Part shown: positions 34,481 to 62,112 of the stretch, one piece after another
Layout: the number at the start of each line of letters is the position of its first letter
Numbering within the stretch: position 1 is the first letter of the stretch
NCBI GenBank assembly: GCA_903873905.1
Contig: CAIQQJ010000045.1
Location: 1-63,117 of the forward strand
Length of the DNA: 63,117 nucleotides
From: an uncultured Flavobacteriales bacterium
GTDB taxonomy: Bacteria > Bacteroidota > Bacteroidia > Palsa-965
Direction: 5' to 3'
Program-made: the position numbers and the translations under genes
Notes under the pieces: generated by a model
What the model was told of the DNA's origin: nothing
Database searches by the model: none
The model's input: only the letters and a program-made list of their open reading frames with translations

Positions 34481-35311
34481 ATGAATTGGCTCGAACATTA
34501 TCTTACAAATTCACCTGATTTACCACGGTTGTTCATTCTTGTTTTCACTTTTCTAATTTGCTGGCTCATTGAAAAAAGGATTTCAACTAAAGATGGCAAA
34601 TTAAAAACCAAACATGCATTTTTCAATGCTCGGTTCATTCTCATTGATGTTCCTGTTCAAGTTGTTTTAGGCTTGTTGTTTTCAGTTGTCATTGGTTATG
34701 ACATGAAACATCGATTCGGAATGTTTGATCACCTTGGCCCTATCCAAAACCCATTAATACAATTCGCGTTAATGTTTATTATGCTCGACTTCTTGGAATA
34801 TGTTTACCATGTGATCATGCATAAAGTGAAACCATTCTGGATGTTTCATCTTGTTCATCATAGTGATAAAAAAATTGATGTTTCATCAACGTTGCGAGAG
34901 CATCCAGGCGAAACATTTGCACGTTTGAGTTTCACTTTGCTTTGGGTATTTATCACTGGCGTTCCACTTTGGATTTTCATACTACGCCAATTCATACAAA
35001 TTGCCTCTAACATCCTTGCACATGCAAGTGTCCGATTGCCGGAAAAATTAAATTCTGTTGTTTCACTTATTTTCATAACACCAAATGTGCATCAGGTCCA
35101 TCACCATTACAAATTGCCTTATACCGATTGTAATTATGGTGACGTGTTGAGCATTTGGGATCGAATGTTTGGGACCTTCATCACCTTGCCAATGGAAAAA
35201 ACTATTTATGGAATTGACAGTTGCTTTGAAGAAAAGGAAAATACAAATTTCAAAACAATGGTTACCATTCCGTTTTCCGGCTACAGAACATCAGCAACTG
35301 TTGAGAATTGA
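34481..35311 (+). CDS. Sterol desaturase / fatty-acid hydroxylase family membrane protein
   Basis: A 276-residue integral membrane di-iron protein. The three histidine clusters that bind iron are present as YHVIMHK, HLVHHSDKK and VHQVHHHYK, with membrane segments between and around them. The family hydroxylates or desaturates lipids such as fatty acids or sphingoid bases. The ATG at 34481 follows the DUF2147 stop by 26 bp. Lipid product is unknown. Confidence 0.92.
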   Translation: MNWLEHYLTNSPDLPRLFILVFTFLICWLIEKRISTKDGKLKTKHAFFNARFILIDVPVQVVLGLLFSVVIGYDMKHRFGMFDHLGPIQNPLIQFALMFIMLDFLEYVYHVIMHKVKPFWMFHLVHHSDKKIDVSSTLREHPGETFARLSFTLLWVFITGVPLWIFILRQFIQIASNILAHASVRLPEKLNSVVSLIFITPNVHQVHHHYKLPYTDCNYGDVLSIWDRMFGTFITLPMEKTIYGIDSCFEEKENTNFKTMVTIPFSGYRTSATVEN

Positions 35312-35392: not shown

Positions 35393-35845
35393 ATGAAAAT
35401 CTCCGCACTTTTTCTTTTCCTTCTATTTCCTGCATTGTCACCACTACTAAATGCGACCCACAATCCTGATGATGTTATTGGTTATTGGATGACATCTCAA
35501 AACACCTTGAAAGTCCAAGTTTATAAAGTGAATGGTGAGTATCGTGGAAAAATAATCTGGTTCAAGGATGAACATTACAAAGCAAAAATGAATGATTGCC
35601 GCGATGAACTAAATCCAGATCCTGCTTTAAGAGACCGAAAAATATTGGGACTAGAGGTTATGAAAAATCTTCATTATGATGCTGACGGAGATAACTGGAG
35701 CGGTGGTTCAATTTATGATTCCAACACAGGTCACACTTACGATTCCGTTGTGAACATGAATACGGCCTCTACAATTACAGTAACTGGTTATTGGATGTTT
35801 ACATGGATTGGAAGAGATTTGAATTTTTATCGGGTAAGCGAATAG
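35393..35845 (+). CDS. DUF2147 exported protein, paralogue 2
   Basis: A 150-residue protein, same length as and very similar to the paralogue at 34002 (shared blocks KVNGEYRGKIIWF, RKILGLE, GGSIYDSN, GHTYDSVV, TITVTGYWMFTW, RDLNFYRVSE), with its own signal peptide (1-21). The two copies flank the hydroxylase gene, which suggests a duplication around it. Its stop is 4 bp from the stop of the convergent phosphatase gene. Confidence 0.88.
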   Translation: MKISALFLFLLFPALSPLLNATHNPDDVIGYWMTSQNTLKVQVYKVNGEYRGKIIWFKDEHYKAKMNDCRDELNPDPALRDRKILGLEVMKNLHYDADGDNWSGGSIYDSNTGHTYDSVVNMNTASTITVTGYWMFTWIGRDLNFYRVSE

Positions 35846-37313: not shown

Positions 37314-38270
37314 TTAGCTCTGCTTGAAAAGAGAATCTACAAACTCTTCTTTGTTGAACACTTGAAGATCTTCCATCTTCTCTCCCACTCCAATATATTT
37401 CACAGGAATTTTAAACTGATCAGAAATTCCAATAACCACTCCACCTTTTGCAGTGCCATCCAGTTTTGTAACGGCAAGTGCTGTAACATCGGTTGCAGCA
37501 GTGAATTGTTTGCATTGCTCAATAGCATTCTGTCCCGTTGAACCGTCTAATACAAGTAAAACTTCATGCGGAGCGTCTTTCACTACTTTCTTCATCACCA
37601 TTTTTATTTTGGTGAGCTCATTCATCAAATTCACTTTGTTGTGCAAGCGTCCTGCTGTATCTATTATGACAACATCAATATCTTTTGTAATGGCAGAATT
37701 CAAGGTATCGTAAGCAACAGACGCCGGATCTGCACCCATTCCTTGCTGCACAATTGGAACATCCACCCGTTTTGACCAAATCGTCAATTGATCCACTGCA
37801 GCCGCACGAAAAGTGTCAGCAGCACCAAGCATCACATTCTTCCCTGCCTTCTTAAATGCATTGGCCAATTTTCCGATGGTAGTAGTTTTGCCCACTCCAT
37901 TTACGCCAACAACCATAATAACATATGGCTTTATGCCCTCAGGAACTGTAAACTCTTGTAAATCGGAAGTGTTATTTTCTGAAAGCAAGCCTGCGATTTC
38001 TTCTCGAAGAATTCTATTCAACTCTTCTGTGCCCACGTACTTATCTTGTGCCACACGTTTTTCAATTCGCTTGATAATTCTCAAGGTTGTTTCAACACCA
38101 ACGTCAGAAGTGATAAGGATTTCCTCCAGATTATCCAGCACTTCCGCATCAACAGAAGACTTCCCTGCAACCGCACGCGCTATCCTTGAGAAAAAATTTT
38201 CCTTCGTTTTAGAAAGTCCCTGATCAAGACTTTCTTTTTTTTCCTTACTGAATAATCCGAAAAATGCCAT
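37314..38270 (-). CDS. ftsY: Signal recognition particle receptor FtsY
   Basis: A 318-residue SRP GTPase with an N domain (residues about 20-100) and G domain. GTPase motifs are G1 VGVNGVGKTTTIGKLA, G2 region DTFRAAAVDQL, G3 DTAGRLHNKVNLM and G4 TKLDGTAKGG. No long acidic A domain precedes it, which is common in Bacteroidota. It docks the SRP-ribosome complex at the membrane. It follows DUF4295 and rpmG on the same strand. Confidence 0.98.
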   Translation of the reverse strand: MAFFGLFSKEKKESLDQGLSKTKENFFSRIARAVAGKSSVDAEVLDNLEEILITSDVGVETTLRIIKRIEKRVAQDKYVGTEELNRILREEIAGLLSENNTSDLQEFTVPEGIKPYVIMVVGVNGVGKTTTIGKLANAFKKAGKNVMLGAADTFRAAAVDQLTIWSKRVDVPIVQQGMGADPASVAYDTLNSAITKDIDVVIIDTAGRLHNKVNLMNELTKIKMVMKKVVKDAPHEVLLVLDGSTGQNAIEQCKQFTAATDVTALAVTKLDGTAKGGVVIGISDQFKIPVKYIGVGEKMEDLQVFNKEEFVDSLFKQS

Positions 38271-38922: not shown

Positions 38923-40380
38923 TTATTTCTTGTTGAGATAGCTCTTTTCTGCCATCATTTTCTCAATATCCAAGGTTGTTTTAGGTACAAATCCAGAAAG
39001 TACCTCTGGAAGATACGCAGAAACCAAAACGTCATCTTCAATGCGGATTCCAATGTTCCACCACTTCGGATCGCAAGGTGAACCTTCAGGAATATAAATC
39101 CCAGGCTCTACAGTAATAACATTTCCACCTTCCAACTTCCCATACATTCCGGCATCATGAACATCCAATCCCAGATAATGCGAAGTGCCATGGAAAAAAT
39201 ATTTTATATAATCTTCCTCATTGGCAATAATGCCTAATTCTTTCAACCTTTTTTTGATGACTCGAACGGCAGCTTTGTGTGGTGCACGAAATTCATTTCC
39301 AGGAATGCATTCTTTTATGCCAGCTAATTGTGCTTCTAAAACAATATCATAAATCGCTTTTTGTTCCATGGTGAATTTCCCGTTGGCGGGTAATGTTCTC
39401 GTAATGTCGGCCGAGTAACCGTGATATTCCGCGCCCGCATCCACTACAATGAGATTGTTTTTTTCCATCGGTTTTCGGTTTGTGGTATAATGAAGAATGC
39501 AGGAATTTTCTCCCGCTCCACAAATGCTTGGATAACCCACCGATTCCGCTCCACGTTTCTTGAATTCATATTCAATAATAGCCTGACCTTGATATTCGGT
39601 CATGTCCGACTCCAAAGCTTTCATCAATTCAATATGAGCTTCTCCACTAATCGTAATGGCTTTTCGCATCAACACTAATTCCTCTGGCAGTTTTATCTGT
39701 CGCATCATCGACATGTATTCTGATAAATACAAAGAATCGTTATTGGTGTTTTTATAAATTCCATTACGGAATTTGCGAATCAATTCTGATAAATCATTTG
39801 GATCCTCAGCATCATCGCGAACATCAGGTTCCATTGGGAAAAAGAAAACCTTTTTGTATTTCTTCCAATCAATGTTCAGATTCCGAAAAGCCTCATCCGT
39901 CAATACAGAATTTATCTCAAGTCTTTTTTTTGCGCCATCCGCCCCCAACCTTCTCCCATGCCACGACTCCGCATTCGGATCGCGATGCATCACAAATAAA
40001 ATTTCATTGGTGAAAAGCGTGTCGATTTGCTGTTTTTCCTTGAAAAGGACAAAAACGGAATTCGGTTCGCGCAAACCTGTCAAATAAAATAGATTGGGAT
40101 CTTGGTGAAAATCAAATTCCACATCATTGGATCGCGTACAAACCGGATTGGAAAAAAAAACCGCTACACTGCTATCCGGCAAAAGTTGTCTTAACGTTTC
40201 ACGTCGGTCTTTATGAAAATACGAAGGAAGTAGATCGGTGTCGTATTCGTAATTGCCTTTAAAAGAAAAACTAAAAAACAGAAAAATGAGTCCAAAGAGA
40301 ATAAGACTTGAAACAAGGCGTTTTTTCCCCTGTCCCCTGTCACTTGTCCCCTGTCCCCTGTCACTTTCTATGCAACTCAT
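38923..40380 (-). CDS. Xaa-Pro aminopeptidase (M24B, aminopeptidase P)
   Basis: A 485-residue exported metallopeptidase. After a hydrophobic anchor (about residues 25-45) come an AMP_N domain (about 60-200) and an M24 pita-bread domain with metal ligands in VVDAGAEYHGYSADITRT, GTSHYLGLDVHD and ITVEPGIYIP. It removes N-terminal residues preceding Pro. Its N-terminus is odd: from the ATG at 40380 the first residues include SDRGQGTSDRGQGKK, encoded by a GTGACAGGGGACA word repeat that lies exactly before the hydrophobic stretch. No other ATG, GTG or TTG in frame precedes the hydrophobic region. Confidence 0.9.
   Translation of the reverse strand: MSCIESDRGQGTSDRGQGKKRLVSSLILFGLIFLFFSFSFKGNYEYDTDLLPSYFHKDRRETLRQLLPDSSVAVFFSNPVCTRSNDVEFDFHQDPNLFYLTGLREPNSVFVLFKEKQQIDTLFTNEILFVMHRDPNAESWHGRRLGADGAKKRLEINSVLTDEAFRNLNIDWKKYKKVFFFPMEPDVRDDAEDPNDLSELIRKFRNGIYKNTNNDSLYLSEYMSMMRQIKLPEELVLMRKAITISGEAHIELMKALESDMTEYQGQAIIEYEFKKRGAESVGYPSICGAGENSCILHYTTNRKPMEKNNLIVVDAGAEYHGYSADITRTLPANGKFTMEQKAIYDIVLEAQLAGIKECIPGNEFRAPHKAAVRVIKKRLKELGIIANEEDYIKYFFHGTSHYLGLDVHDAGMYGKLEGGNVITVEPGIYIPEGSPCDPKWWNIGIRIEDDVLVSAYLPEVLSGFVPKTTLDIEKMMAEKSYLNKK
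40327..40368. repeat. GTGACAGGGGACA word repeat at the 5' end of the aminopeptidase gene
   Basis: Tandem words built on TGTCCCC and TGTCACT (five to six units) occupy this stretch, and related words occur at 17211-17247. If the ATG at 40380 is the true start, the repeat is translated as two DRGQG units. Confidence 0.6.
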
Positions 40381-40485
40381 TTGAACATTATTTATGAATG
40401 ACCAAAAATACAAAAACGTTGCCCGTAAGAACAGACAACGTTTTTAAAATGATTTATCAGAAACAAACGGCTGCAAACCGTCAAA

Positions 40486-41298: not shown

Positions 41299-42720
41299 AT
41301 GGTATTTGCAAGTTTGACTTTTCTTTACATTTTTCTGCCGCTGAATTTGCTGCTCTATTATGCATCGAAAAATCCGACGTACCGCAATTTAATTCTCACT
41401 ATTTTTTCATTTGTTTTTTATGCCTGGGGCGAACCAATCTGGATTGGCCTTCTTGCACTTACAGCATTGATCGATTATGGCAATGGTCGTTTCATCGAGG
41501 CAAACCGCGGAAAAGCAATTGCGAAAATCGGCGTTATCTGTTCCTTGATTTTCAACATCAGTACTTTGTTGACATTTAAATACAGTGCCTTTTTCATTTC
41601 CAACTTCAACCATCTTCTTGGAACGCACATGACAGTTCCATCCTTCGCATTACCAATCGGAATTTCGTTTTACACTTTTCAATCCATCTCCTATGTAATT
41701 GACGTGTATACCGGAAAAGTAACGGCACAAAAATCATTGCTCAAGTTTTTGATGTTTGTGAGTTTGTATCATCAATTGGTTGCCGGTCCTATTGTGCGTT
41801 ATGTACACATTGCGAATCAAATTGACAAACGAAGATTCAACATTGTCGATATTTCCACTGGAATTACGAGATTTTGTGTAGGGCTTTTCAAAAAAGTTTG
41901 CATCGCGAATATTGCAGGAACCTTTGTTGTGAAATATCTCGATGGCGATCTCTCTCATCTTTCTGTAGCGGAAAGTTGGTTTGGAATTCTCATGTTCACC
42001 ATCCAAATCTATTTCGACTTTAGCGGTTATTCCGATATGGCAATTGGATTGGGAAGAATGTTCGGCTTTCATTATTATGAAAACTTCAATTATCCGTACG
42101 TTGCTAAATCGGCAACGGATTTCTGGAGACGTTGGCACATTTCTCTTTCAACATGGTTCCGCGATTACATCTACATTCCATTAGGAGGAAATAAATCGAA
42201 AGGCTATAGAAATCTTTTCATTGTTTGGTTTCTAACCGGTTTCTGGCATGGAGGATCTCATGGTGCGTGTTGGAATTATATTTTGTGGGGATTGTTCTGG
42301 GGATTTTTGATTTTGATCGAGCGCATGTTCCTTGCTAAATTCATGAAAAAAATTCCGGCTGTTTTTGGACACATTTATTTATTGGCGGCAATGATTTTTG
42401 GTTGGGTGCTATTTTATTTCACCGACTTGAATCGCATGTGGGAATTTCTCAGAATCATGTTAGGCGTTGCAGGACACGACTTGTCGAGTTTCGAATTCCG
42501 AATTGTATTTCAGGAAAACATTTTCTGGATGTTCTTGGCTATATTATTCTGCATGCCAATTTATTTGATTATTCACCGAAAAGTAAAACGTCAATTGGTG
42601 AGTGGCACAGCACAAATTTGGTACGGAATGAATATTGTGGTTAACTTTCTCTTGCTTTTCCTTGCAACATCCATGTTGGTTGGCAACAGCTACAATCCAT
42701 TTATCTATTATCGATTCTGA
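41299..42720 (+). CDS. MBOAT O-acyltransferase (AlgI-like)
   Basis: A 473-residue membrane-bound O-acyltransferase with about 11 membrane helices. The AlgI/DltB-type core is clear: DFWRRWHISLSTWFRDYIYIPLGGNK and the active-site His in WFLTGFWHGGSHGACW. These proteins pass acetyl (or other acyl) groups from a cytoplasmic donor across the membrane to a periplasmic acceptor. It is the first gene of a four-gene plus-strand unit, 10 bp before the DHHW-type partner gene. Confidence 0.95.
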   Translation: MVFASLTFLYIFLPLNLLLYYASKNPTYRNLILTIFSFVFYAWGEPIWIGLLALTALIDYGNGRFIEANRGKAIAKIGVICSLIFNISTLLTFKYSAFFISNFNHLLGTHMTVPSFALPIGISFYTFQSISYVIDVYTGKVTAQKSLLKFLMFVSLYHQLVAGPIVRYVHIANQIDKRRFNIVDISTGITRFCVGLFKKVCIANIAGTFVVKYLDGDLSHLSVAESWFGILMFTIQIYFDFSGYSDMAIGLGRMFGFHYYENFNYPYVAKSATDFWRRWHISLSTWFRDYIYIPLGGNKSKGYRNLFIVWFLTGFWHGGSHGACWNYILWGLFWGFLILIERMFLAKFMKKIPAVFGHIYLLAAMIFGWVLFYFTDLNRMWEFLRIMLGVAGHDLSSFEFRIVFQENIFWMFLAILFCMPIYLIIHRKVKRQLVSGTAQIWYGMNIVVNFLLLFLATSMLVGNSYNPFIYYRF

Positions 42721-42730
42721 CGTAAATAAA

Positions 42731-44122
42731 ATGAGACCGAGAACCTCCAAACAAAAATTCGCTTTCTTCAACTTGATTGTTTTTACAATCGTGTTGGGAG
42801 TAATGGGCATTTTGTTTTTTGTTCTTCCCCATTCAAAAATTTCCATTGTGGAAAAACGAAAACTGGCAGAAATGCCAATCCTTTCCACCAAATCACTTTT
42901 TGAAGGAAATTATTTCAAAGGATTGGATCTATTCCTCGCTGACAATTTCCCATTCAGAGAAGGATTTGTAAGTACTTCCTTTTATCTCAAGGAAAATCGT
43001 GGAGTTCATTCCGAAAAAATCGGTTTCTACAAAACGGTTGCCGTAGACGCACAATTACCAGCCAATGTTGATACCACCTTGGGGAAATCAGATACACTTG
43101 CACTTGATTCTGCAGATCGTGGCTCGGCGGAAACAACAGAAGGCGTTGTAATATATGACAACCGTGCAATGGAAGTGTTTGGAGGAAGTAGTTCTATGGC
43201 AAAGTCGTATGCGGCTGCTGTAAATAAATACCAGGAAGCATTGCAAGGGAAAGCAACGATTTACGACATCGCTGTTCCTTCTTCCATCGCTTTTTATCCG
43301 CCAACGGAATATCGAAAAATGGCTGCGTCGGAAAAACTAAACATCGACCAGATATATGGAAATTTGGTTTCCGGAATAAAAACAGTTGATGCCTATTCCG
43401 AAATTGCAGCACATCGCAATCAGTATATTTATTTTGGCACCGATCACCATTGGACAGGATTGGGCGCATATTACGCTTACGTTGCATTTTGTCATGCAGC
43501 AGCAATTAATCCAATTGCGCTCGAAGCGATGACGCATAAAGTGAAAAAAAATTATCTAGGTTCTTTGTATTATCTCACGCGCGATTCAAAACTGAAAGAC
43601 AATCCTGATTCTGTAGAATATTGGATGGTTCCTGGAAAACAGAAAACCATTCGCTATGGCCCAACACTTTCAAAAGGTACGGGAGGTTCCTTGTATGCTG
43701 AACATGCGAGTGGCGGAAATTCTTACGGTGTTTTTCTTGGTGGTGATAATCCATTAATGCGAATTGATACCGACGTTAAGAACGGAAGAAAAGTTGTTGT
43801 AGTGAAAAATTCCTATGGAAATCCATTCTCCACGTATCTAGTTGCGAATTATGAAACTGTTTTTGTAGTGGATTACCGTTATTACAATGGAAGTTTACTT
43901 GATCTGATAAAGGACAATGGCATCAACGATGTCATTTTCATCAATGGAGTTTTCTCTGCCAATACTTCTTGGCATATAAAAATGATGTCGAAAATTATGA
44001 ATGGCTCGGGAACAAAAAACCCTAAATCTCCTAAACAAGATTCAACACCTAAGGATGCGGACTCCATCAAAAACAATGTTAATGATTCCGTAAAAAACAA
44101 AGGACTAAAAAAAATTCCGTGA
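42731..44122 (+). CDS. AlgJ/AlgX-like DHHW-domain O-acetyltransferase partner
   Basis: A 463-residue exported protein with an N-terminal anchor (about residues 12-35). It has an SGNH-like fold of the AlgX/AlgJ (DHHW) type: the signature DHHW is at residues 238-241 (YFGTDHHWTGLGAYYAY) and there is a later NSYGNPF with YRYYNGSL. Such proteins receive acyl groups from AlgI and transfer them to a polymer. The start at 42731 is chosen because earlier in-frame codons overlap the MBOAT gene. The C-terminal tail is Lys/Pro/Asp-rich and likely disordered. Confidence 0.9.
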   Translation: MRPRTSKQKFAFFNLIVFTIVLGVMGILFFVLPHSKISIVEKRKLAEMPILSTKSLFEGNYFKGLDLFLADNFPFREGFVSTSFYLKENRGVHSEKIGFYKTVAVDAQLPANVDTTLGKSDTLALDSADRGSAETTEGVVIYDNRAMEVFGGSSSMAKSYAAAVNKYQEALQGKATIYDIAVPSSIAFYPPTEYRKMAASEKLNIDQIYGNLVSGIKTVDAYSEIAAHRNQYIYFGTDHHWTGLGAYYAYVAFCHAAAINPIALEAMTHKVKKNYLGSLYYLTRDSKLKDNPDSVEYWMVPGKQKTIRYGPTLSKGTGGSLYAEHASGGNSYGVFLGGDNPLMRIDTDVKNGRKVVVVKNSYGNPFSTYLVANYETVFVVDYRYYNGSLLDLIKDNGINDVIFINGVFSANTSWHIKMMSKIMNGSGTKNPKSPKQDSTPKDADSIKNNVNDSVKNKGLKKIP

Positions 44123-44204
44123 GCATGTTGGCGGATAAACTCTATCTTGAAGCGTGACTAAAAACTATAATTTGAAAATATTTTCTCCCAACATTTTTTC
44201 TCCA

Positions 44205-45761
44205 ATGAAAACATTCAATAAAGCCGTATTGATGGTTTCATTTTTTTCTTTTTTGTTCGTGAATGTGTGGGCGCAGGATTCAACTGAAATCTATGCAACA
44301 AAATATCCCTTTTTGCATCCCGAGTTTGGCATGATTCAATTTTACAGTAGAACTGCTTTAGATACATTCAACAAAAGTTGGAATGAAACAAAGGCTAAAA
44401 AAATGTCTATCGTCCATCTAGGTGATTCACATTTGCAATCCGATTTGTTTCCAGGGAAAATGCGGAAATATTTGCAGGCAGAACTTGGTGATGGTGGAAG
44501 AGGAATTATGTTTCCCTACTCGACTGCAAAAACATATTCGTCTGTGGAATACCACACCACCCACACGGGTGAATGGACCTATGGGAAAAGTTTGATCCTG
44601 CCGCCAAAAATACCGTTAGGTGTTTCTGGAATGACTTCCAAAACCATTGACACGAACGCCAGTTTCACGTTCACATTTATAAATGATGTTCCCTCAAATT
44701 ATTCAAAGCTGAAAATATTCTGCAAAAAAGATTCTATCAGTTATGATCTTGTGGTGGAAGTCGGTGGAAAATTTATTCCTGTAAATGTGGACACTATTGC
44801 CGGTGACTCGCTTCCCTATTATGAAATTGATTTGCCTTCATTCAAGAATGAAATAATTTTTCACGTCAAGAAAAATCATCCTAACGAATCTGAATTGGTT
44901 TTTTATGGAATGAGTTTAGAAACACCAAGTGACAATGGATTGATTTATCACAATTGCGGAGTGGGTGGTGCGATGTATAAATCCATCTTGTACGAAAATC
45001 TTTTCGCAGAACAAATTCCAGCATTACATCCTGATTTGATCATTATTGATTTTGGTACAAATGATTATTTGTATGATGATAGTATAAAGGCTAATGAAGA
45101 AACTATCATCACACAAGTTGTTCAAATGGTTCACGCAGCTTCACCAAATGCAAGTATCATTCTAACATCCACAATGGACATGTATCACAAAGCCGATCAT
45201 GTTACATCAGGAGAAATTTTTTCCAACCTGATCAAGAAAGTGGCGAAGGCACAGAATTGTGGCGTTTTCGATTGGTATTGGGTTGCTGGTGGGTGGAATG
45301 TGATGCCGAAATTTCAGGAGCAAGCATTGGCAAATCCCGATGGAATTCACATGTCACCCCGAGGATATCGCTTGAAAGCGAATTTGCTGAGTCAGGCTAT
45401 GGTGAAAACGGTTTTGTGGATGAAAGAAAATCCAACAAAAGATTCACTCGTTTTCCAAATGGATAGTTTGAAAAAACTACAACTATCAATTCGTTTGGGA
45501 GAAGATTCCGATTCAATTGCGCCTGGACCAAGGGTTAAGGTGATGCACAAAATCAAAAAAGGTGAAAGCCTTTCTGTCATTGCAAAAAAATACCATGTAA
45601 CCGTTGCACAACTACGTACCTGGAATCACATGCAAAGCAATTTGATTCACACAGGAAAATACTTGCTTGTTTATTGCGATCCAAAATTCAAACCAAAACC
45701 CAAGCCAAAAGCAAAGCCGAAGCCTGCTGGAACTAAACCTACATCTCCAAAACCGAAGTAG
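44205..45761 (+). CDS. SGNH/GDSL hydrolase with C-terminal LysM domain
   Basis: A 518-residue exported protein (signal peptide 1-22, ending VWAQ). It has SGNH block I GDSHLQSD (G73-S75), block III GTNDY (284-288) and block V DGIHMSPRGY (D379, H382), giving the Ser-Asp-His triad. A LysM domain spans about 445-490 (KIKKGESLSVIAKKYHVTVAQL) and a K/P-rich tail follows. LysM domains bind peptidoglycan or chitin-like glycans, so it may act on acyl groups of peptidoglycan or a linked polymer. It is 82 bp after the DHHW gene. Confidence 0.93.
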   Translation: MKTFNKAVLMVSFFSFLFVNVWAQDSTEIYATKYPFLHPEFGMIQFYSRTALDTFNKSWNETKAKKMSIVHLGDSHLQSDLFPGKMRKYLQAELGDGGRGIMFPYSTAKTYSSVEYHTTHTGEWTYGKSLILPPKIPLGVSGMTSKTIDTNASFTFTFINDVPSNYSKLKIFCKKDSISYDLVVEVGGKFIPVNVDTIAGDSLPYYEIDLPSFKNEIIFHVKKNHPNESELVFYGMSLETPSDNGLIYHNCGVGGAMYKSILYENLFAEQIPALHPDLIIIDFGTNDYLYDDSIKANEETIITQVVQMVHAASPNASIILTSTMDMYHKADHVTSGEIFSNLIKKVAKAQNCGVFDWYWVAGGWNVMPKFQEQALANPDGIHMSPRGYRLKANLLSQAMVKTVLWMKENPTKDSLVFQMDSLKKLQLSIRLGEDSDSIAPGPRVKVMHKIKKGESLSVIAKKYHVTVAQLRTWNHMQSNLIHTGKYLLVYCDPKFKPKPKPKAKPKPAGTKPTSPKPK

Positions 45762-45788
45762 TATAAAGTTGGGAGTCATTTATTTGAA

Positions 45789-46400
45789 ATGAAAATACGC
45801 AAGTCGAATTTCAAATTTTTTATTTTGTTTTTTGCAATGGGAATTTTTCTTTCCTCTTGTGTTGAAGCAGAAAAGAAAAACGAATCGAGAATCGATTCTT
45901 TGGTTTCATTGCCAATTCCTTTGGACACGGTTAATGGAAATGTTATCCAAAAAGATTCCATTAAAAAAGACACTGCCAATTCCCATCTTTCGGATTCATT
46001 GTCAAAAAAAACTATTCCATACAATGGTCCAACACCTGAAATAGGAGGTGAAGTTTTTTACAACCTTCCCTATTGCGGAGGAGCGCGACCAACAGAAGAA
46101 ATACTTGTTCAACTTGCAATTTGGAAACCGCTTACAAATTCAACCTTGGAATTCAGAAATAAATCACGTGGATATTTAATCAGCATTAATAAAGATGGAT
46201 TTTTCAGCGAAGCAATTCCTGAAGGTAACTACGACGTTTTTCTAACGCGTAAAGTGAATAAAGAAATTTACAACGTCGAACCCAATGCTTGCGAGAATTG
46301 TCTTACCGAGCCAATCGCAAAAATAAAATTGGTGCTTAATGGGAAAAATGAAATCCGTTTTACTTTCCGCTGCGATCCAGGTGCAAGGATGAGACCTTGA
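45789..46400 (+). CDS. Lipoprotein of unknown function in the O-acylation unit
   Basis: A 203-residue protein with a lipoprotein signal (FAMGIFLSSC, Cys near residue 22), a polar Ser/Asp/Lys-rich linker to about residue 80, then a beta-rich domain (EVFYNLPYCGGARPTEEILVQL, YLISINKDGFFSEAIPEGNYDVFL, NEIRFTFRCDPGARM), which resembles a carboxypeptidase-regulatory-like sandwich. It ends 1 bp before the stop of the convergent WcaF-like gene. Function unknown; its place implies a part in the same surface process. Confidence 0.75.
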   Translation: MKIRKSNFKFFILFFAMGIFLSSCVEAEKKNESRIDSLVSLPIPLDTVNGNVIQKDSIKKDTANSHLSDSLSKKTIPYNGPTPEIGGEVFYNLPYCGGARPTEEILVQLAIWKPLTNSTLEFRNKSRGYLISINKDGFFSEAIPEGNYDVFLTRKVNKEIYNVEPNACENCLTEPIAKIKLVLNGKNEIRFTFRCDPGARMRP

Positions 46401-46961
46401 TTATTCTGCATTAATTTCCCGCTCACGCATTTTCACTGCAGGATTGCCCTGATAAATCCCATACGCTTCCAAATTCGATGTTGCAATAGATCCTACCGCT
46501 AGTAAAGAATGTGAAGCACAAATCACTCCCGGACAAACAACTGCCTTCGCTCCTATCCACACACCTTCTTCCAAAACTATTTCACCCGTCATCAAATCAA
46601 ATGTTGACTTTTTATAATTATGATTTCCAGTGAGCAACATGGCTCCTTGCGAAAGGCAAACATTGGAAGCAATTGAAACTTTTACAAGATTGTCAATCCA
46701 AACATTTTCGCCAATCCAAACAAAATCTCCAATTGAAAGAAACCACGGCGCTTTAATATTCACACCTGGTTTTATCACCACTTTTTTCCCAACCCGCGCC
46801 CCAAATAGTTTTAAAAGAAATATTTTAAATCCACTGAAAGGAAATCGCGAACAAAAAAATGCATTATTCATGCAATACCACAAACCTCGCTTCAAAAAAG
46901 AAGCGCCCGGTTTATACCAGCTATTGTTGAATCTCGCCAAGTCCGTTTTTTCAGTCGACAT
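46401..46961 (-). CDS. WcaF-family hexapeptide acetyltransferase
   Basis: A 186-residue left-handed beta-helix acetyltransferase. Hexapeptide repeats are seen in GARVGKKVVIKPGVNI, IGENVWIDNLVKVSIASNVCL and VWIGAKAVVCPGV, and the family block LTGNHNYKKSTFDL includes the catalytic His. It matches WcaF-type enzymes of extracellular-polysaccharide clusters that O-acetylate sugars with acetyl-CoA. It is alone between the O-acylation unit and the CNNM gene. Confidence 0.92.
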   Translation of the reverse strand: MSTEKTDLARFNNSWYKPGASFLKRGLWYCMNNAFFCSRFPFSGFKIFLLKLFGARVGKKVVIKPGVNIKAPWFLSIGDFVWIGENVWIDNLVKVSIASNVCLSQGAMLLTGNHNYKKSTFDLMTGEIVLEEGVWIGAKAVVCPGVICASHSLLAVGSIATSNLEAYGIYQGNPAVKMREREINAE

Positions 46962-47095
46962 GTTGTAAAGATAATGTGTGTATGGAGAAATATCTACTCA
47001 TTACCGTCTTGCAGTAATTGAAAATGTGCAAATACACCCTATTTGCTCTAAAAAGTCCGTCATTACTGAATTCTTTCACATTCCTGCTAATATCG

Positions 47096-47103
47096 TATAT
47101 TTG
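47096..47103 (+). promoter_or_regulatory. TAnnTTTG box before the CNNM/CBS gene
   Basis: TATATTTG, a perfect -7 consensus match, is 27 bp before the ATG at 47131. No well-spaced TTG precedes it. Confidence 0.5.
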
Positions 47104-47130
47104 CAGTTCAAAGAGCGTTCCTCTTTCCCT

Positions 47131-48459
47131 ATGGTACCAGATCTGATACTGATTATTTTCCTCATCCTTCTCAATGCTTTCTTCGTCGCAGCCGAATTTG
47201 CGATGGTGAAGGTTCGTTCCTCACAAATTGATCTCAAAATAAATCAAGGAAGTGCGAGAGCTAAAATTGCAAAAAGCATTCTCAACAAAATGGATCGCTA
47301 TTTATCAGCGACCCAACTCGGAATTACCGTAGCAAGTTTGATTCTTGGTCGTGTTGGTGAACCTTACATTTCTTCCCTACTCGATATTCTATTTCTCAAA
47401 ATGCATTTTATGGTCAGCGAGCCTACCATGCATACCATCGCATTTGCAACAGGCATCGCATTAATCACCATCGTTCACATGGTTATTGGTGAACAGGTTC
47501 CCAAAACATTATCGATTCGTTATTCGCTTGAAACATCCATGTTTGTTGCTTTGCCATTACGCGCATTCTACTATATTTTCGCACCATTCATTTGGCTCGT
47601 AAATTTCTTCACACGACTTACACTTCGGATTTTTGGAATAAGTATTTCTGCTGACCATGACGATATTCATACCGAAGAAGAACTTCGCTTGTTATTGACA
47701 GAAAGTGAAGAAGGCGGTGCCATCAAACAATCAGAACACGAATTGATTCAGAATGTTTTTGAATTCGATGATCGCGCTGTAAAAAGCATTCTTGTTCCTC
47801 GCAATAAAATTTCTGCAATTGATATTGAATTGGGAAATGATGAGATTCTCGACAAGATGATCGAGGAAGGTTATTCCCGTATGCCGGTTTATAAGGATTC
47901 GTTGGACAATGTAATCGGAATTATTTACGCGAAAGATTTACTCAAACTTTTGAAAATCGGAAAGATGGGTCGTGCTGAAATTGAAAGCATGATTCGTCCC
48001 GCGCATTTTATTCCACAAAGCAAACGCATCAATGATTTGCTTCGTGAATTTCAAACCTTGCACATTCAAATGGCAATGGTTACAACAGAATTCGGTGGAA
48101 TTGCTGGACTTGTAACAATGGAAGATGTCATTGAAGAATTGGTTGGTGAAATTCAGGATGAATACGATGAGGAAAAACCAGCAGTCGAGAAAAAGTCCGA
48201 TACTGAATTTATTGTAAACGCAATGGCCAGCATTTCCGATGTCAACGATGTCTTGCCAATTGCATTGCCTGAAAGTCCACATTACGAAACAGTTTCCGGA
48301 TTGATGAATTATCTATTCGGTCGTATTCCTGCTGTGAATGAGAAAAAAGAATTCGGTGGTTATGAATTCATGATCATGAAACGTTTCAAACACAGCGTTG
48401 AATCCGTGAAGATGAAAGTTTTGGAGGAAGGACAATTCTCAACAGAAAGTGAAGATTGA
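47131..48459 (+). CDS. CNNM/CorC-family membrane protein (hemolysin-like, CBS domains)
   Basis: A 442-residue protein with an N-terminal DUF21/CNNM membrane domain (residues about 1-195, AAEFAMVKVRSSQID and IGEQVPKTLSIRYS), a CBS pair (about 210-335, ILVPRNKISAIDIE and FIPQSKRINDLLREFQ), and a C-terminal CorC_HlyC domain ending in the sequence before SESED. The family acts in Mg2+/Co2+ efflux; in Bacteroidota the related GldE is linked to gliding. The ATG at 47131 is chosen, as the upstream in-frame extension is not conserved. Confidence 0.94.
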   Translation: MVPDLILIIFLILLNAFFVAAEFAMVKVRSSQIDLKINQGSARAKIAKSILNKMDRYLSATQLGITVASLILGRVGEPYISSLLDILFLKMHFMVSEPTMHTIAFATGIALITIVHMVIGEQVPKTLSIRYSLETSMFVALPLRAFYYIFAPFIWLVNFFTRLTLRIFGISISADHDDIHTEEELRLLLTESEEGGAIKQSEHELIQNVFEFDDRAVKSILVPRNKISAIDIELGNDEILDKMIEEGYSRMPVYKDSLDNVIGIIYAKDLLKLLKIGKMGRAEIESMIRPAHFIPQSKRINDLLREFQTLHIQMAMVTTEFGGIAGLVTMEDVIEELVGEIQDEYDEEKPAVEKKSDTEFIVNAMASISDVNDVLPIALPESPHYETVSGLMNYLFGRIPAVNEKKEFGGYEFMIMKRFKHSVESVKMKVLEEGQFSTESED

Positions 48460-48829
48460 TTTTATATTTGAAGATTCGAAATTCGAACATTTGAGATTTT
48501 TCATTGACGTATGTTTTCCCTGCCTCCTGCCATCTTTCCCCTGCCGTCTTCACATCAATTTATTATTTGAAATAGCTCCCCCTTCTTTTTCATTTGTAAT
48601 CTGAAATCAGAAAATCGGTAATCATTAGGGCGTGTCCCCCAACAGTGCTGTTGGATGTCGGGTTATCCGTTTCAAGTCCTCAGCCGCAGTATAGGGTTTG
48701 AAAAGCCGACACTGCGACTTCCGGGCTTTCTCCCGAAGGGACCACTATGTGGCTCTACTATCCCTCACGCGAAAAAAAAAACACTTTTCAATCAGGAATA
48801 CCGTCGTGCCTTAGTGGCAAAAAAAATAA
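48460..48829. other. Gene-free gap before the polysaccharide locus
   Basis: This 370-bp gap between convergent genes contains CCTGCC-type word repeats (48517-48545), the dispersed element copy D and a short A-rich tail. Open frames at 48655-48921 and 48747-49037 fall inside the element and have no protein-like features. Confidence 0.55.
48627..48779 (+). repeat. Dispersed hairpin element, copy D
   Basis: Starts AGGGCGTGTCCCCC with the 7-bp hairpin CCAACAG (48639-48645) / CTGTTGG (48648-48654) right at the front, then GTCGGGTTATCCGTTTCAAG, a second stem CCGCAGT/ACTGCGA (about 48683-48716), GGGCTTTCTCCCG, and CTACTATCCCTCACGC with nine A residues. It lies between convergent genes. Confidence 0.78.
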
Positions 48830-49984
48830 TTATGAGAAAAGTTTCCTATTATCCACTATCAACTTCTCATTCGAAGCATACTGCTTTGAAAAACGAATTG
48901 CCCCTTCCGACCAAATCCTGAATTCACTTTCATTCATTCCCCAAATTGATTCAATAATCTTCACAAAGGCATCTTGCGATTGGAGTGGCAAATCCCATCC
49001 TGCATTTTCTTTCACCAAATTTTTCCAAGGCGTTTGATCTGAAATCAACACTGGCGTTCCCGATTGCAGTGATTCAAGAATAATGTGACCGAAATTTTCA
49101 CCCCGTGTTGGCATGAAAAGCAAATCATAATTCGCTAAGCTTTTTGAAATCTCATCAGCAGCAATTGCACCAAGGAAATTCAAATTAATATTCGCAGGAA
49201 GTTTTTCAGCAGCAGCTTTGCATTCCAACCAATACTCTTCGCTGTAAATTGGACCATAAAAATCAGCAGACAGTTGAATCTTCACTTTTGACAACACTTC
49301 AATTGCATAAAGCGTGTTTTTCTCAGGAGAAATTCGCGCGACAGAAATAATTCTTAATTCCTTAGGCTTTTTCGCTGCATGTTGAAATGTAGCAGCTATC
49401 ATTCTCGGAAGATTTCCAGCAACAAGGATTTCTGTTTTATCTCCAATCGCATTTCTGATATCACTCGCTTCTTTCAAATCAGTGGCATGAAAAATGACAT
49501 TTGAAAAATCATTTCTCCATTTGGCAAGATGCAAATACAACTTTTTCTTGGTTGCCTTAATGGCCAAAGCAGAAGGGGCCAACATTCCCCTCGCTGCAAC
49601 AATGACTTCCCCCTTGAACTTCGATCGCTTCAATTCTTTCATTGGCCAAGCTGTAAAAGCCTGTGACCAAATTCCATTCAAATAAACAGCATCGTATTTT
49701 TCATCGCGCAATAATTGTGCGATTGTATTTTTATTCAACTGCCCCGCAGAAATATAATAAACTCGTTTCCCATCTGGCAAAACATTCCACGCATCGCTAT
49801 TAATTCCTGAATAAGGTTTTGATTCCGTGTAATCCGTATCACGCGTTATGATTGAAAAATCAAATTCAGTATCAAAATGGTCTATCAAATTTGCAACAGA
49901 ACGAATTGGACCGCCCGCTTTGTTACCGGGCAAAAACCAATCAATAAAGACCAGTACTTTCTTTTTGGATTTAATTGATGTCAT
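48830..49984 (-). CDS. Glycosyltransferase family 4 protein
   Basis: A 384-residue GT-B enzyme. KVLVFIDWFLPGNKAGGPIRSVANL is the N-terminal domain start, and the C-terminal domain has LRIISVARISPEKNTLYAIEVL and the donor-binding PTRGENFGHIILESLQSGTPVLIS (E-x7-E-type motif). It should add a sugar in surface-polysaccharide synthesis. The ATG at 49984 overlaps the asnB stop by 14 bp, indicating coupling with the amidotransferase gene. Confidence 0.92.
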   Translation of the reverse strand: MTSIKSKKKVLVFIDWFLPGNKAGGPIRSVANLIDHFDTEFDFSIITRDTDYTESKPYSGINSDAWNVLPDGKRVYYISAGQLNKNTIAQLLRDEKYDAVYLNGIWSQAFTAWPMKELKRSKFKGEVIVAARGMLAPSALAIKATKKKLYLHLAKWRNDFSNVIFHATDLKEASDIRNAIGDKTEILVAGNLPRMIAATFQHAAKKPKELRIISVARISPEKNTLYAIEVLSKVKIQLSADFYGPIYSEEYWLECKAAAEKLPANINLNFLGAIAADEISKSLANYDLLFMPTRGENFGHIILESLQSGTPVLISDQTPWKNLVKENAGWDLPLQSQDAFVKIIESIWGMNESEFRIWSEGAIRFSKQYASNEKLIVDNRKLFS

Positions 49985-51836
49985 TTTTTTCAAGCCAATG
50001 TGACAATACAACAAGTGGCCAAATTCTTGACCAAGTTACTTTCGGATCATCATTCAAAAAACTATTCCACAATTCATTTAGTCCTTTTGCATTGAAAGGT
50101 TCTCGTTTCCCAAGTTCGCTTATTCGAGTTTCGCAAAAATTCCTCAATTCATTTTTCATCCAATTCTTCCACGGGAAAGTAAATCCCATTTTCGGACGAT
50201 TCACTATTTCACTCGGCAACAAATCAGAAACTGCATCCACAAGCAACTTTTTCGTTGTAATTGGATATTTCATTTCATCCGGAAGATTCAAAACATATTC
50301 CACCAATTTATAATCCAGAAATGGAACACGAACTTCCAAAGCATGCGCCATGCTCATTTGATCCGTATCTCGCAGCAAAATATTTTGCATATAAGTTGTA
50401 ATTTCCGCAATGGAAACACGACTCATCAGAAAATCTTCTCCCAAAATTTCCTTATCAATTGAACGAAGCATTTCGGCAACAACATTCGAATCTTCAAATT
50501 TCGAATATCGAATTTTTCCAATCTGTTCCTTTAGCAATACTTGTCTTGAAATCGGATAAAAAGATGCAAAATTAATTTTCTCCATTCCCAAGATCACAGC
50601 TTTCTTTTCTCCCGCAACACCAGGTTTTTTTTTCTTTAAAATATTTCCTGCAACATTTCGTAAGGATCGTGGAACAGAATTCAACCATTTCTTTCTTTCC
50701 AATTCTGCAGATCTTTTGAAAATATCATAACCACAAAACAATTCATCGCCACCCAAACCAGAAAGCGCCATTGTAACACCGGCATTTTTTGTTGCCTTCG
50801 CAACCACATAGGTATTCGGTCCATCACCACTCGGATGATCCATTGCATCCAAGGCATTGGGAAGATCATTTAAGAAATCTTCCGGCTTCAATTTTATTTC
50901 ATGATGAATCGTTTTGAATTTTTCCGCAATTTGATTCGCATAAACCGCTTCACTGAATTCCGAATCATCAAATGTGATTGAAAAAGTATTGACAGGAGAA
51001 CTCGCTACCTCACTCATTAAACCAACAATTGCACTTGAATCTATTCCTCCTGACAAAAAAGCTCCAAAAGGAACATCGGCAACCAATCGTCGTTCTACTG
51101 CGTCTCTCAACAATTGTCTAACATCCTTGCAAACCGATTTGTAATCAGGAATAATTTCATTTTTATTAATTGTGGGTTTCCACCAACATTTCATTTCAAT
51201 TGCGCCATTTTCAATCAGCATAAAATGTCCGGGCATTAATAGTTGAACATTTTCAATGATTGTTTTTGGAGCATGAACAGTTTGATAATGCAGATAATCA
51301 TCAAGGGAATTCAAATCCATTTTTCTTGCAATCATTCCAGATGAAAGCAAAGCACGGATTTCAGAGGAGAAAATTACATTTCCATCAATTGTAGAAAAAT
51401 AAAGTGGCTTAATTCCCAATCGATCGCGTGCAATAAAAAGAGATTGTTTTTTCTTATCGAAAATCGCGAAGGCGAACATTCCATTAAAATGTCGCAAACA
51501 ATCCTCGCCCCATTTTACAAAGGCCGCAAGAATAACTTCCGTATCCGTATTGGTGTGAAATGAAACTTCAGTCATTTCACTTTTTATTTCCTTGAAATTA
51601 TAAAGTTCTCCATTGTAAACAATCGTATAACGATCATTGGCGTACTTCATCGGTTGATGGCCCGCACTCGACAAATCGATAATGGAAAGTCTGCGATGCC
51701 CTAATGCAATTCCATCTTCAGAAAATATTCCTTCATCATCCGGCCCCCGATGTGCAAGCGCAAGATTCATCTTCCGAACTTGTGATTCGAAGTTTCCTTG
51801 TGATTTAAGATGAATGATTCCGTTAATTCCGCACAC
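49971..51836 (-). CDS. asnB: Asparagine synthase (glutamine-hydrolysing), AsnB type
   Basis: A 621-residue amidotransferase: N-terminal Ntn glutaminase starting at catalytic Cys2 (MCGINGIIHL) with RGPDDEG and YNGELYNF, then an ATP-dependent synthase domain with SGGIDSSAI (P-loop), LGGDELFCGY and FPISRQ. The start is GTG at 51836, fixed because Cys must be residue 2. Inside a glycan locus these enzymes may amidate a sugar or peptide group of the polymer rather than make free Asn. Transcribed with the neighbouring glycosyltransferase genes. Confidence 0.95.
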   Translation of the reverse strand: MCGINGIIHLKSQGNFESQVRKMNLALAHRGPDDEGIFSEDGIALGHRRLSIIDLSSAGHQPMKYANDRYTIVYNGELYNFKEIKSEMTEVSFHTNTDTEVILAAFVKWGEDCLRHFNGMFAFAIFDKKKQSLFIARDRLGIKPLYFSTIDGNVIFSSEIRALLSSGMIARKMDLNSLDDYLHYQTVHAPKTIIENVQLLMPGHFMLIENGAIEMKCWWKPTINKNEIIPDYKSVCKDVRQLLRDAVERRLVADVPFGAFLSGGIDSSAIVGLMSEVASSPVNTFSITFDDSEFSEAVYANQIAEKFKTIHHEIKLKPEDFLNDLPNALDAMDHPSGDGPNTYVVAKATKNAGVTMALSGLGGDELFCGYDIFKRSAELERKKWLNSVPRSLRNVAGNILKKKKPGVAGEKKAVILGMEKINFASFYPISRQVLLKEQIGKIRYSKFEDSNVVAEMLRSIDKEILGEDFLMSRVSIAEITTYMQNILLRDTDQMSMAHALEVRVPFLDYKLVEYVLNLPDEMKYPITTKKLLVDAVSDLLPSEIVNRPKMGFTFPWKNWMKNELRNFCETRISELGKREPFNAKGLNELWNSFLNDDPKVTWSRIWPLVVLSHWLEKNDIN

Positions 51837-51864
51837 AAAAGTGTTTTTTATTAGTGAATAAAAT

Positions 51865-52911
51865 TCATTTCAAATTTATCAAATGATACAGTTTTTCAGC
51901 CCAAATTTTCGGCGTATGTAAAGATGCAATTCGATTGGAATTTTCTCCCATTGCGTAAAGTTCATTATCACTCATTTTAATAACAGACTTCAGTACGGAT
52001 TTAAGATTGTTGGAATTCCCATGTTCAATCTTAAACCCATTTGTTTCATTAAGAAAAAATTCAGCTGCGCCAACTTGATCACTGAGAAGGAGAGGAAATC
52101 CCGCCGCTGCAAATTCATGAGCAACCACACCCCAAGGTTCGAACAGACTTGGCAAAACAAAAACACCAGTTTGTTGAATGTAACTTCTCATTTCAGAAGG
52201 TTGAACAAAACCAAAATGTTTGATTTTGGGATGTTCATAAGGTTTCAATTCACCTTTTCCCAAGCACCACAGTTCCCAATCATTTGGACTTTCATTTTGA
52301 ATTTCAGAAAAAGCCTTCCAGAGCATATCTATTCCTTTTTCCTCTACATAACGACCCACAAAAATGAAACGTTTGGGGAAGGAATCCCTTTTTCCTTCAC
52401 GATTTTCAAGAAAATAATTGTTGAACTGAACAAAATCGCACGCATACGCACCTGTTTCAATTCTCGATTCTGCAAACCCAAGACGAATTGCAAAATCCTT
52501 TTGAGGTGTTGCAGGAACAAAACATCGATCAAACCGTTTCGAAAAATATGATTTTGCCAATGATGTTGAAATGCGTTGCTTTATTGAACCATTCCACCAG
52601 TTGTCAAGTCCAAGAATAATGGGAATAGTTGGCTGGAAATGTTTGCAGATTTTCAGATAAAATTTATTGGACCATCCTGCGCAAAAAATGGCTTGGGCTG
52701 AAAAAGATTTCATTCTATGAAACAAATCAGATTCCGAAACCAAATTACGATCGAGGATCTCAATCATAGGATGCTTTTCAAATCTGAATGGAGCAGAAGG
52801 ATTTGATTCTTTCCTTATGACCAAAACCTGCGCGTCGTATCTTTCCGCAAAATCAGTAATACAGGCCATAAAATAGCCCGCCAATTCTTCATATAGTACT
52901 ATAATTTTCAT
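51865..52911 (-). CDS. Glycosyltransferase family 4 protein
   Basis: A 348-residue GT-B enzyme starting at the second in-frame ATG (52911, MKIIVLYEELAGYFMACI); an ATG 12 bp earlier is also possible. The C-terminal domain has RFIFVGRYVEEKGIDMLWKAF, LWCLGKGELK and VLPSLFEPWGVVAHEFAAAGFPLLLS, which are GT4 donor-site motifs. The N-terminal part is less typical. It lies 29 bp before asnB. Confidence 0.9.
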   Translation of the reverse strand: MKIIVLYEELAGYFMACITDFAERYDAQVLVIRKESNPSAPFRFEKHPMIEILDRNLVSESDLFHRMKSFSAQAIFCAGWSNKFYLKICKHFQPTIPIILGLDNWWNGSIKQRISTSLAKSYFSKRFDRCFVPATPQKDFAIRLGFAESRIETGAYACDFVQFNNYFLENREGKRDSFPKRFIFVGRYVEEKGIDMLWKAFSEIQNESPNDWELWCLGKGELKPYEHPKIKHFGFVQPSEMRSYIQQTGVFVLPSLFEPWGVVAHEFAAAGFPLLLSDQVGAAEFFLNETNGFKIEHGNSNNLKSVLKSVIKMSDNELYAMGENSNRIASLHTPKIWAEKLYHLINLK

Positions 52912-53013
52912 ACTGTTTCGCATCTCGAAGATAGGCTAATTCCTTTTTCTCAAAACGGTTTTTCGTGATTGAAACTAGAATACTTTTTTTATCTTCAACG
53001 CAGATTAAATAAA

Positions 53014-53976
53014 ATGAAAATAGAGATAGGCGACTTTGAAGACTGGATGAAACCACAGGTTGCTCAATTGTTCAGCATGCAATATGGTGTTAACTCCAAG
53101 GATTTTGCTGAACTCATGACTGATTTTTATGAACATCCTTACCAGCAGGAGAAGTGTATTCGTGTGGTGGCAAAAGAAGGGAATAAGATAGCAGGCTTTC
53201 AATCATTTTTTTACTGGCCCTACTCGTATGAAGGAAAAGAATATTGCTCTTATCAATCTGGAAATTCTTTGGTTCATCCTGATTACAGAGGAAAAGGCAT
53301 ATTTCAAAAATTGCTAAATGCCATTGAAGAAAAGAGATCGAAATATGGTATAGATTTTCTAGTTGGATTTCCTGTCGAGGATTCCTATAAGAGTTTCATT
53401 CGAAATGGATGGACTAATGTTTTAGATATGAAATGGTATATAAAGATTGTGAATCCAATAGCTGGTATTTTCAGTCCTGATAAGCGGCGTTTAAAAAAAA
53501 TATTTCCAGATGAAAAAAGTCAGCTTCATGAGCAGCTGCCTTTGGGATCCTTCAGGCTCACTTCTGATGCTGAATTTTCAGAATGGCGAAAAAACTACTC
53601 AAAAAACGAATATTTCATATTTAATTATGAGGAAAAGAATGAATTTGTTCGTTTTGAACTAAAGTACAACAGAAGAAAACGAATGATAAATGAACTTATT
53701 GTTGGGAACATTGTTTCGTCGACAGAAGATAATTTGATGGTTGAAAGAGGACTAAGAGCATTGTCCAGAAAAGCTTTTGCTTCATTTGTAATTAGTATTA
53801 TTTCTATTGCGATTAACAAATTATCACTAAATAGTCTTTCACCCTCGCTCTATTCTAGTGGATTTAAAGAGTCGAAAAAGAAAATTTTCTTTATCGTAAA
53901 ATCATTTAATGAATCACTCCCTGTAATGGATTCAGGGAAGTGGGATTTATTCAGAAGTGATATAGACACCTGGTAA
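53014..53976 (+). CDS. GNAT-family N-acetyltransferase
   Basis: A 320-residue protein with a GNAT domain in residues about 1-150. The acetyl-CoA motif is visible in LVHPDYRGKGIFQKLLN, preceded by IAGFQSFFYWPY, and the DFLVGFPVEDSYKSFIRNGW region follows. The second half is a further domain that may bind substrate, as in FemX-type or sugar N-acyltransferases. It overlaps the deacetylase start by one base (TAATG), so both form a two-gene plus-strand island in a minus-strand locus. Confidence 0.85.
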   Translation: MKIEIGDFEDWMKPQVAQLFSMQYGVNSKDFAELMTDFYEHPYQQEKCIRVVAKEGNKIAGFQSFFYWPYSYEGKEYCSYQSGNSLVHPDYRGKGIFQKLLNAIEEKRSKYGIDFLVGFPVEDSYKSFIRNGWTNVLDMKWYIKIVNPIAGIFSPDKRRLKKIFPDEKSQLHEQLPLGSFRLTSDAEFSEWRKNYSKNEYFIFNYEEKNEFVRFELKYNRRKRMINELIVGNIVSSTEDNLMVERGLRALSRKAFASFVISIISIAINKLSLNSLSPSLYSSGFKESKKKIFFIVKSFNESLPVMDSGKWDLFRSDIDTW

Positions 53977-57348: not shown

Positions 57349-57463
57349 TGATGAGACCGAAATAGGTAAATCTGATGAGCAAATAGGAGAGCTTAGTCAA
57401 AACGAATTCGGAACAAATATAAGTATACAAATCGGCAAAATAATTTATGCCTTTTCGAACCAT

Positions 57464-58609: not shown

Positions 58610-58648
58610 ATGGAAATCTCTTCTAAATCTAATCTTTTCATTCATGGC

Positions 58649-62024: not shown

Positions 62025-62112
62025 TTGTACTTCAAAATTAATCTGATTTTTGTCTTTTTAAGCCTAGCCAATCAAAATTCAACAAGAAGAATAAGTTAAG
62101 CTGATCACCTCC

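Follow-up and report, generated by a model that had tools for sequence, protein, structure and literature searches.

A rare Bacteroidota gene cassette that joins an MBOAT and a DHHW-family O-acetyltransferase to an Ape1-type, LysM-bearing predicted esterase

Contig CAIQQJ010000045.1 of assembly GCA_903873905.1, from an uncultured Flavobacteriales bacterium (Bacteroidota; Palsa-965), was analysed over its whole length of 63,117 nt (hereafter the window), in which four co-directional open reading frames (ORFs) on the plus strand at 41299-46400 follow each other with successive gaps of 10, 82 and 27 nt. We consider that the first three of them, encoding an MBOAT acyltransferase, a DHHW-family protein and an SGNH protein with a LysM domain (SGNH-LysM), probably represent a re-partnered cassette for peptidoglycan O-acetylation and de-O-acetylation whose esterase is tethered to the cell wall. 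The cassette is an uncommon form of the O-acetylpeptidoglycan (OAP) cluster already described, rather than a system of a new kind. The four ORFs are the following.

41299..42720, plus strand: MBOAT acyltransferase (PatA/AlgI/DltB-like), 473 amino acids, PF03062
42731..44122, plus strand: DHHW-family O-acetyltransferase (PatB1-like), 463 amino acids from ATG, PF14286
44205..45761, plus strand: Ape1-type predicted esterase with a C-terminal LysM (SGNH-LysM), 518 amino acids from ATG, Lipase_GDSL_2 and LysM; an alternative GTG start is possible at 44154
45789..46400, plus strand: lipoprotein, 203 amino acids, lipobox LSSC, no Pfam match

Conservation was assessed in 20 loci, the window and 19 fetched ones, several of which are one locus taken from two collections. 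The SGNH-LysM family is present in all 20, and MBOAT and DHHW are present in 19 each, in constant order and within unrelated surroundings, the other neighbours of the cassette differing among the loci. The conserved unit is therefore the three genes MBOAT, DHHW and SGNH-LysM, and their association is beyond chance. A preliminary description of this DNA had proposed a four-gene module, to be sought as a conserved set in Bacteroidota; the four co-directional ORFs are as it described them and three are linked among the relatives, but the lipoprotein is not. As a candidate fourth member the lipoprotein was rejected because it adjoins the cassette in the window and in no other compared locus. Its weak relatives elsewhere in the family (L092 and L093) are unlinked small secreted proteins sharing YCGGARP, and it is either a chance neighbour or an accessory peculiar to this locus. 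The cassette is rare: among 395 sampled genomes of Bacteroidota, 2 have a DHHW protein of the cassette kind, and 78 have Ape1-like proteins of the group to which SGNH-LysM belongs. Its carriers are both Saprospira grandis genomes and metagenome-assembled genomes (MAGs) named Flavobacteriales, Cytophagales and Chitinophagales. A further copy was seen at L059:273-4747 in a MAG labelled Oligoflexales (Bdellovibrionota), reflecting either inter-phylum transfer or misbinning.

Both Pfam domains of SGNH-LysM, Lipase_GDSL_2 (6.4e-17) and LysM (3.1e-10), lie above cut-off on one protein, in which a signal peptide (residues ~1-23) is followed by an SGNH core with an inserted beta-rich domain (~100-250) like a carbohydrate-binding module (CBM), and by LysM at ~448-488. 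A profile made from 23 proteins matched Ape1 of Neisseria meningitidis (4k3u) at E=5e-45 and Ape1 of Campylobacter jejuni (8gkd/8gld) at ~5e-31. The predicted structure, with a predicted local distance difference test score (pLDDT) of 88, matched Ape1 in Foldseek (E of 8e-24), and VIA-align superposed it on 4k3u with a Z of 36.9 over 339 of 349 residues (root-mean-square deviation 2.6) and on C. jejuni Ape1 with a Z of 32.1/31.8, the next structure down scoring 18.9. The whole-chain fold of Ape1 is thus found, and the beta-rich stretch that separates block I from block II matches the CBM35-like insert of Ape1. S75, D379 and H382 together with G255 and N286 correspond to S80, D366 and H369 together with G236 and N268 of NgApe, taken as the catalytic and oxyanion reference residues (PMC6174289). 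By fold and catalytic residues SGNH-LysM is predicted to be a peptidoglycan O-acetylesterase of Ape1 type. A literature search limited to open-licence papers found none on LysM-Ape1 fusions and none on DHHW proteins of Bacteroidota.

The gene upstream encodes a protein with PF14286 well placed (E=2.4e-58, 198.7 bits, above cut-off) and PF16822 marginal (27.7 bits against a cut-off of 26.5). It matched BcPatB1 at E=3e-20 and 4nzk, another DHHW structure, at E=4e-62, and carries one N-terminal membrane anchor. All catalytic motifs of BcPatB1 (TDHHW, K(D/N)S and DxRY; PMC9487903) are found in it, as TDHHW at 237-241, KNS at 359-361 (KDS in some relatives) and DYRY at 381-384, and they are kept in 14 aligned proteins. 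In a structural model of moderate quality (pLDDT 74; poor at 101-136 and in the tail from 427) its closest structures are 4nzk and PatB1, followed by AlgJ and AlgX. The features that characterise a PatB1-type O-acetyltransferase, namely the Pfam DHHW domain with catalytic Ser, Asp and His and an oxyanion Arg, are all present.

Above-cut-off PF03062 (E=7.5e-24) and matches to DltB structures (E~1e-36) place the first protein among the MBOATs. It has FWRRWH at residues 275-280, His317 within WHG, and FIYYRF as its last six residues, with H317 and F468/Y470/F473 invariant across 13 aligned MBOAT proteins, so that domain, FWxRWH, conserved His and C-terminal FxYxxF of PatA/AlgI-type MBOATs are found together. 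In PatA and DltX the tyrosine of FxYxxF ferries the acyl group to an SGNH partner (PMC12148441), and by analogy the FIYYRF tail may serve as an acyl-tyrosine shuttle. The sole NCBIfam match of the MBOAT, far under cut-off, is DltB, the D-alanyl transferase component, which would favour a group other than acetyl being moved, or another wall-linked polymer or protein being the acceptor. We hold this to be very improbable, because the characterised relatives whose MBOAT itself bears FxYxxF work with acetyl (PMC12148441) and because no DltA/DltC-type carrier gene was noticed among the neighbours of the cassette, although no specific search for one was made. Three further MBOAT genes were observed in the same genome (L046:3848-6600, L047:7979-10477 and L048:7156-9593), the first adjoined by an ALGX-family partner and the other two by genes of uncharacterised, perhaps SGNH-like, products. 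Several distinct O-acylation systems seem to operate in this genome.

In the proposed peptidoglycan cassette, the MBOAT would take acetyl from cytoplasmic acetyl-CoA onto Tyr470 of its tail, as PatA and DltX suggest, and the tail would present it to the membrane-anchored DHHW protein. There, Ser361 with Asp238/His240, and with Arg383 in the oxyanion hole, would pass the acetyl on to a sugar hydroxyl, presumably of peptidoglycan. SGNH-LysM (Ser75/Asp379/His382; Gly255/Asn286) would strip the acetyl again so that glycan-cleaving hydrolases could act, and its LysM would keep the esterase on the wall.

Two ARRANGEMENTS were distinguished, the cassette and SGNH_B - SGNH_A - MBOAT, the latter being without DHHW and having SGNH_B and SGNH_A both as relatives of Ape1. 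Likened by gene order alone, the latter is ape1b-ape1c-pat of Bacteroides thetaiotaomicron, Bacteroides fragilis and Porphyromonas gingivalis; peptidoglycan O-acetylation has been reported at 69% in B. fragilis and 27% in B. thetaiotaomicron (PMC1199599). A one-to-one match of the labels 1b/1c with SGNH_B/SGNH_A is uncertain, because Ape1 subfamily 1c is said to lack a segment of ~100 amino acids after motif I (PMC1199599) and the SGNH_A group does have an insert after motif I, which makes it a poor fit to that subfamily. S. grandis Lewin (L055) carries the cassette and not SGNH_B - SGNH_A - MBOAT. A full-length Ape1-like protein is encoded in 12 of 12 genomes of the window's family, and in all 11 of these whose neighbourhood was fetched its gene lies in one of the two arrangements, G004 having both. 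Moreover, a chromosomal slot between cinA and pepP-ftsY holds the cassette in G006 and the other arrangement in G008, G009 and, as a second copy, G004. The window cassette retains the pepP-ftsY side of this slot, with both genes called by Pfam and by gene order in relatives.

37314-38270, minus strand: ftsY, one flank of the cassette slot
38923-40413, minus strand: aminopeptidase P (pepP), one flank of the slot

This alternation within one family, together with the common slot, argues that the two arrangements do the same job. Nearly all DHHW and SGNH_B proteins have an N-terminal membrane anchor and most Ape1-like proteins have a signal peptide, a parallel division of labour in which DHHW or SGNH_B would be the presumed transferase, anchored, and the Ape1-like protein would be secreted.

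In a tree of Ape1-like domains the cassette proteins form one clade (support of 98) that is sister to L098 (95), where an Ape1-like protein with two LysM lies inside SGNH_B - SGNH_A - MBOAT without DHHW (L098:8104-13422; G195:C1:364000-382000). In the MBOAT tree the two arrangements fall into separate clades (95-100), and the L098 MBOAT groups with the other arrangement on a long branch; all support values are SH-like approximate likelihood ratio test (SH-aLRT) values of quick trees. Because the locus with a LysM-bearing Ape1 in the known arrangement is the sister of the cassette clade, re-partnering is the best account of the cassette. The simplest form of it is that Ape1 gained LysM inside the known cluster and then re-partnered with a DHHW/MBOAT pair; that is, an ape1b-ape1c-pat cluster would have kept its LysM-bearing Ape1 and swapped its MBOAT/transferase pair for one of DHHW type. 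Independent losses, or an exchange in the opposite direction, are possible alternatives. A strict co-occurrence of LysM with DHHW, which all complete loci scanned at first had obeyed (the orphan L054 apart), was abandoned as a rule when L098, with LysM and without DHHW, and L097 broke it.

These results recast what the preliminary description had made of the module. Its view of an extracytoplasmic O-acylation module akin to PatA/PatB/Ape and AlgI/J/X is supported. It had also placed the LysM-SGNH protein outside the standard sets, but the SGNH part is of Ape1 type and belongs to the OAP cluster, LysM alone being the addition, and the fusion is not peculiar to the cassette since L098 has LysM on Ape1 in the known arrangement. 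What is unusual is rather that Ape1 is accompanied by a PatB1-type DHHW transferase and the separate MBOAT lineage that goes with it.

Peptidoglycan is the likely acceptor, as judged from the identity of the encoded proteins and of the genes nearby. Small glucosaminidase (PF01832) genes lie next to the cassette, or next to relatives of it, in L052, L058, L057, L097, L086 and L088 (under Pfam cut-off in L052 and called by a local profile only in L088), and another lies ~6 kb away in L083. In the two Chitinophaga loci (L086:7893-8414 and L088:7778-8395) the glucosaminidase-like gene stands directly upstream of SGNH_B - SGNH_A - MBOAT. Given that genomes of the window's family contain 0-3 PF01832 genes each, such adjacency is unlikely by chance, with the qualification that it was seen post hoc, that the copies represent perhaps three related groups, and that the background rate comes from the window's family only. 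A precedent for pairing an esterase with a hydrolase is the complex of Neisseria Ape1 with the lytic transglycosylase LtgA (PMC7083599). Of the acceptors suggested earlier, peptidoglycan or a chitin-like glycan, the former is thus supported by Ape1 identity, LysM and the glucosaminidases, while nothing was found for the latter.

Several observations weigh against a peptidoglycan cassette as proposed here. BcPatB1 modifies a secondary wall polysaccharide, whose N-acetylglucosamine (GlcNAc) it acetylates, and did not yield O-acetyl-peptidoglycan (PMC9487903), and clostridial MBOAT/DHHW pairs have been proposed for cellulose (PMC7710045). The gene set itself is incomplete in L097:6852-10074 (G126), where MBOAT-DHHW stands without an adjacent Ape1-LysM and a small glucosaminidase gene adjoins, and in L054, which carries the esterase gene alone. 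In the esterase, the position of Ape Asn235 is Gly in every aligned cassette protein, and Ala replaces Ape Gly236 in 7 of 13, the window protein retaining the glycine as Gly255. Finally, the genes downstream of the cassette form a polysaccharide-type cluster in the window and in one relative; its content in the window, named by eye, includes asparagine synthase-like, acyltransferase-3-like and UDP-GlcNAc 2-epimerase-like genes.

46401-46961, opposite strand (convergent): hexapeptide acyltransferase, ending 1 base past the lipoprotein stop
46401-62800, downstream of the cassette: glycosyltransferase/polysaccharide gene cluster

With a hexapeptide acyltransferase, glycosyltransferases and further polysaccharide genes downstream, the target of O-acetylation could instead be a polysaccharide, secreted or capsular, that this neighbouring cluster makes, in the manner of AlgI/J/X, LysM doing no more than keeping the second enzyme close to the wall. 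Both the other glycans on which known or proposed DHHW pairs work and the structural nearness of the DHHW protein to AlgJ/AlgX would agree with this possibility. We regard it as unlikely because such a neighbourhood recurs in L037 only, a genus mate in which just its first part stands beside the cassette, whereas the cassette is conserved; because the third protein is Ape1 and not AlgX; and because glucosaminidase genes are found repeatedly next to the cassette and next to its relatives. Linkage to exopolysaccharide genes was seen in no locus besides the window and that of a single genus mate, and was not counted as support.

The substitutions in block II bear on the direction of the last step. 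This region differs between esterases and transferases and is altered in the transferases PatB and SpOatA (PMC12148441), as it is in the cassette clade, and since the other arrangement is without DHHW, the transferase there should be one or the other of the two Ape1-like proteins. SGNH-LysM could then be a second transferase, receiving acetyl from DHHW or MBOAT and placing it on peptidoglycan at a site chosen by LysM in a two-enzyme relay. However, Gly255 is retained in the window protein, the fold is that of Ape1 including the insert, and in the other arrangement the transferase is more probably the membrane-anchored SGNH_B, so that we give such a relay a distinctly low chance. Among the structural matches listed for the SGNH-LysM model there are no PatB structures, which is no proof of difference. 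A separate suggestion, which we offer tentatively and think unlikely, comes from the transferase being of PatB1 type, which acetylates GlcNAc: acetyl might be set on GlcNAc rather than on C6 of N-acetylmuramic acid (MurNAc), with block II of the wall-tethered Ape1 (Asn235 to Gly) tuned to the different position.

With peptidoglycan as the favoured acceptor, the cassette can be set beside the known systems. What defines an OAP cluster is that an MBOAT gene and one or more Ape esterase genes lie together (PMC1199599), and the cassette is such a cluster. Like ape1b-ape1c-pat of Bacteroides and Porphyromonas, in the same phylum, it clusters one MBOAT with a secreted Ape1-like SGNH protein; unlike it, the cassette has DHHW in place of a second Ape1-like protein, another MBOAT lineage, the MBOAT gene first and LysM on Ape1. 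With patA-patB-ape1 of Neisseria and Campylobacter it shares an FxYxxF MBOAT, an anchored transferase and a secreted Ape1 with a CBM-like insert, but its transferase is the circularly permuted DHHW and not PatB, and its Ape1 has LysM; it is not a Gram-negative PatA/PatB pair, as the anchored partner is DHHW and the other SGNH protein keeps the block II Gly. The MBOAT + DHHW pair and the TDHHW, K(D/N)S and DxRY motifs recall PatA1/PatB1 of Bacillus cereus, a Gram-positive system that differs in its acceptor, GlcNAc of a secondary wall polysaccharide, and in that no Ape1 partner is described for it in the papers cited here. Finally, alginate acetylation by AlgI/AlgJ/AlgX likewise combines an MBOAT with a permuted SGNH acetyltransferase fold; by contrast, the cassette DHHW is nearer PatB1 than AlgJ/AlgX, its third protein is Ape1 and not AlgX, and it does not belong with the AlgX-family transferases of alginate clusters, since 4nzk and PatB1 rank over AlgJ/AlgX and PF16822 is marginal.

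Each part of the cassette is a known family, and the combination, together with the L098 intermediate, is the informative part. It joins the DHHW family, known from Gram-positive wall polysaccharide, and the Ape1 family of peptidoglycan in one operon-like set, and L098 makes partner exchange around a conserved esterase testable. If the proposed cassette is true, DHHW-dependent O-acetylation of peptidoglycan would be predicted for Bacteroidota, Saprospira grandis for example, and the range of acceptors known for DHHW proteins would become wider; the cassette would also offer a natural case of an O-acetylesterase bearing its own peptidoglycan anchor.

Elsewhere in the window, two highly similar secreted proteins of 150 amino acids (34002-34454 and 35393-35845) lie on either side of a fatty acid hydroxylase gene (34481-35311), apparently as the result of a duplication.

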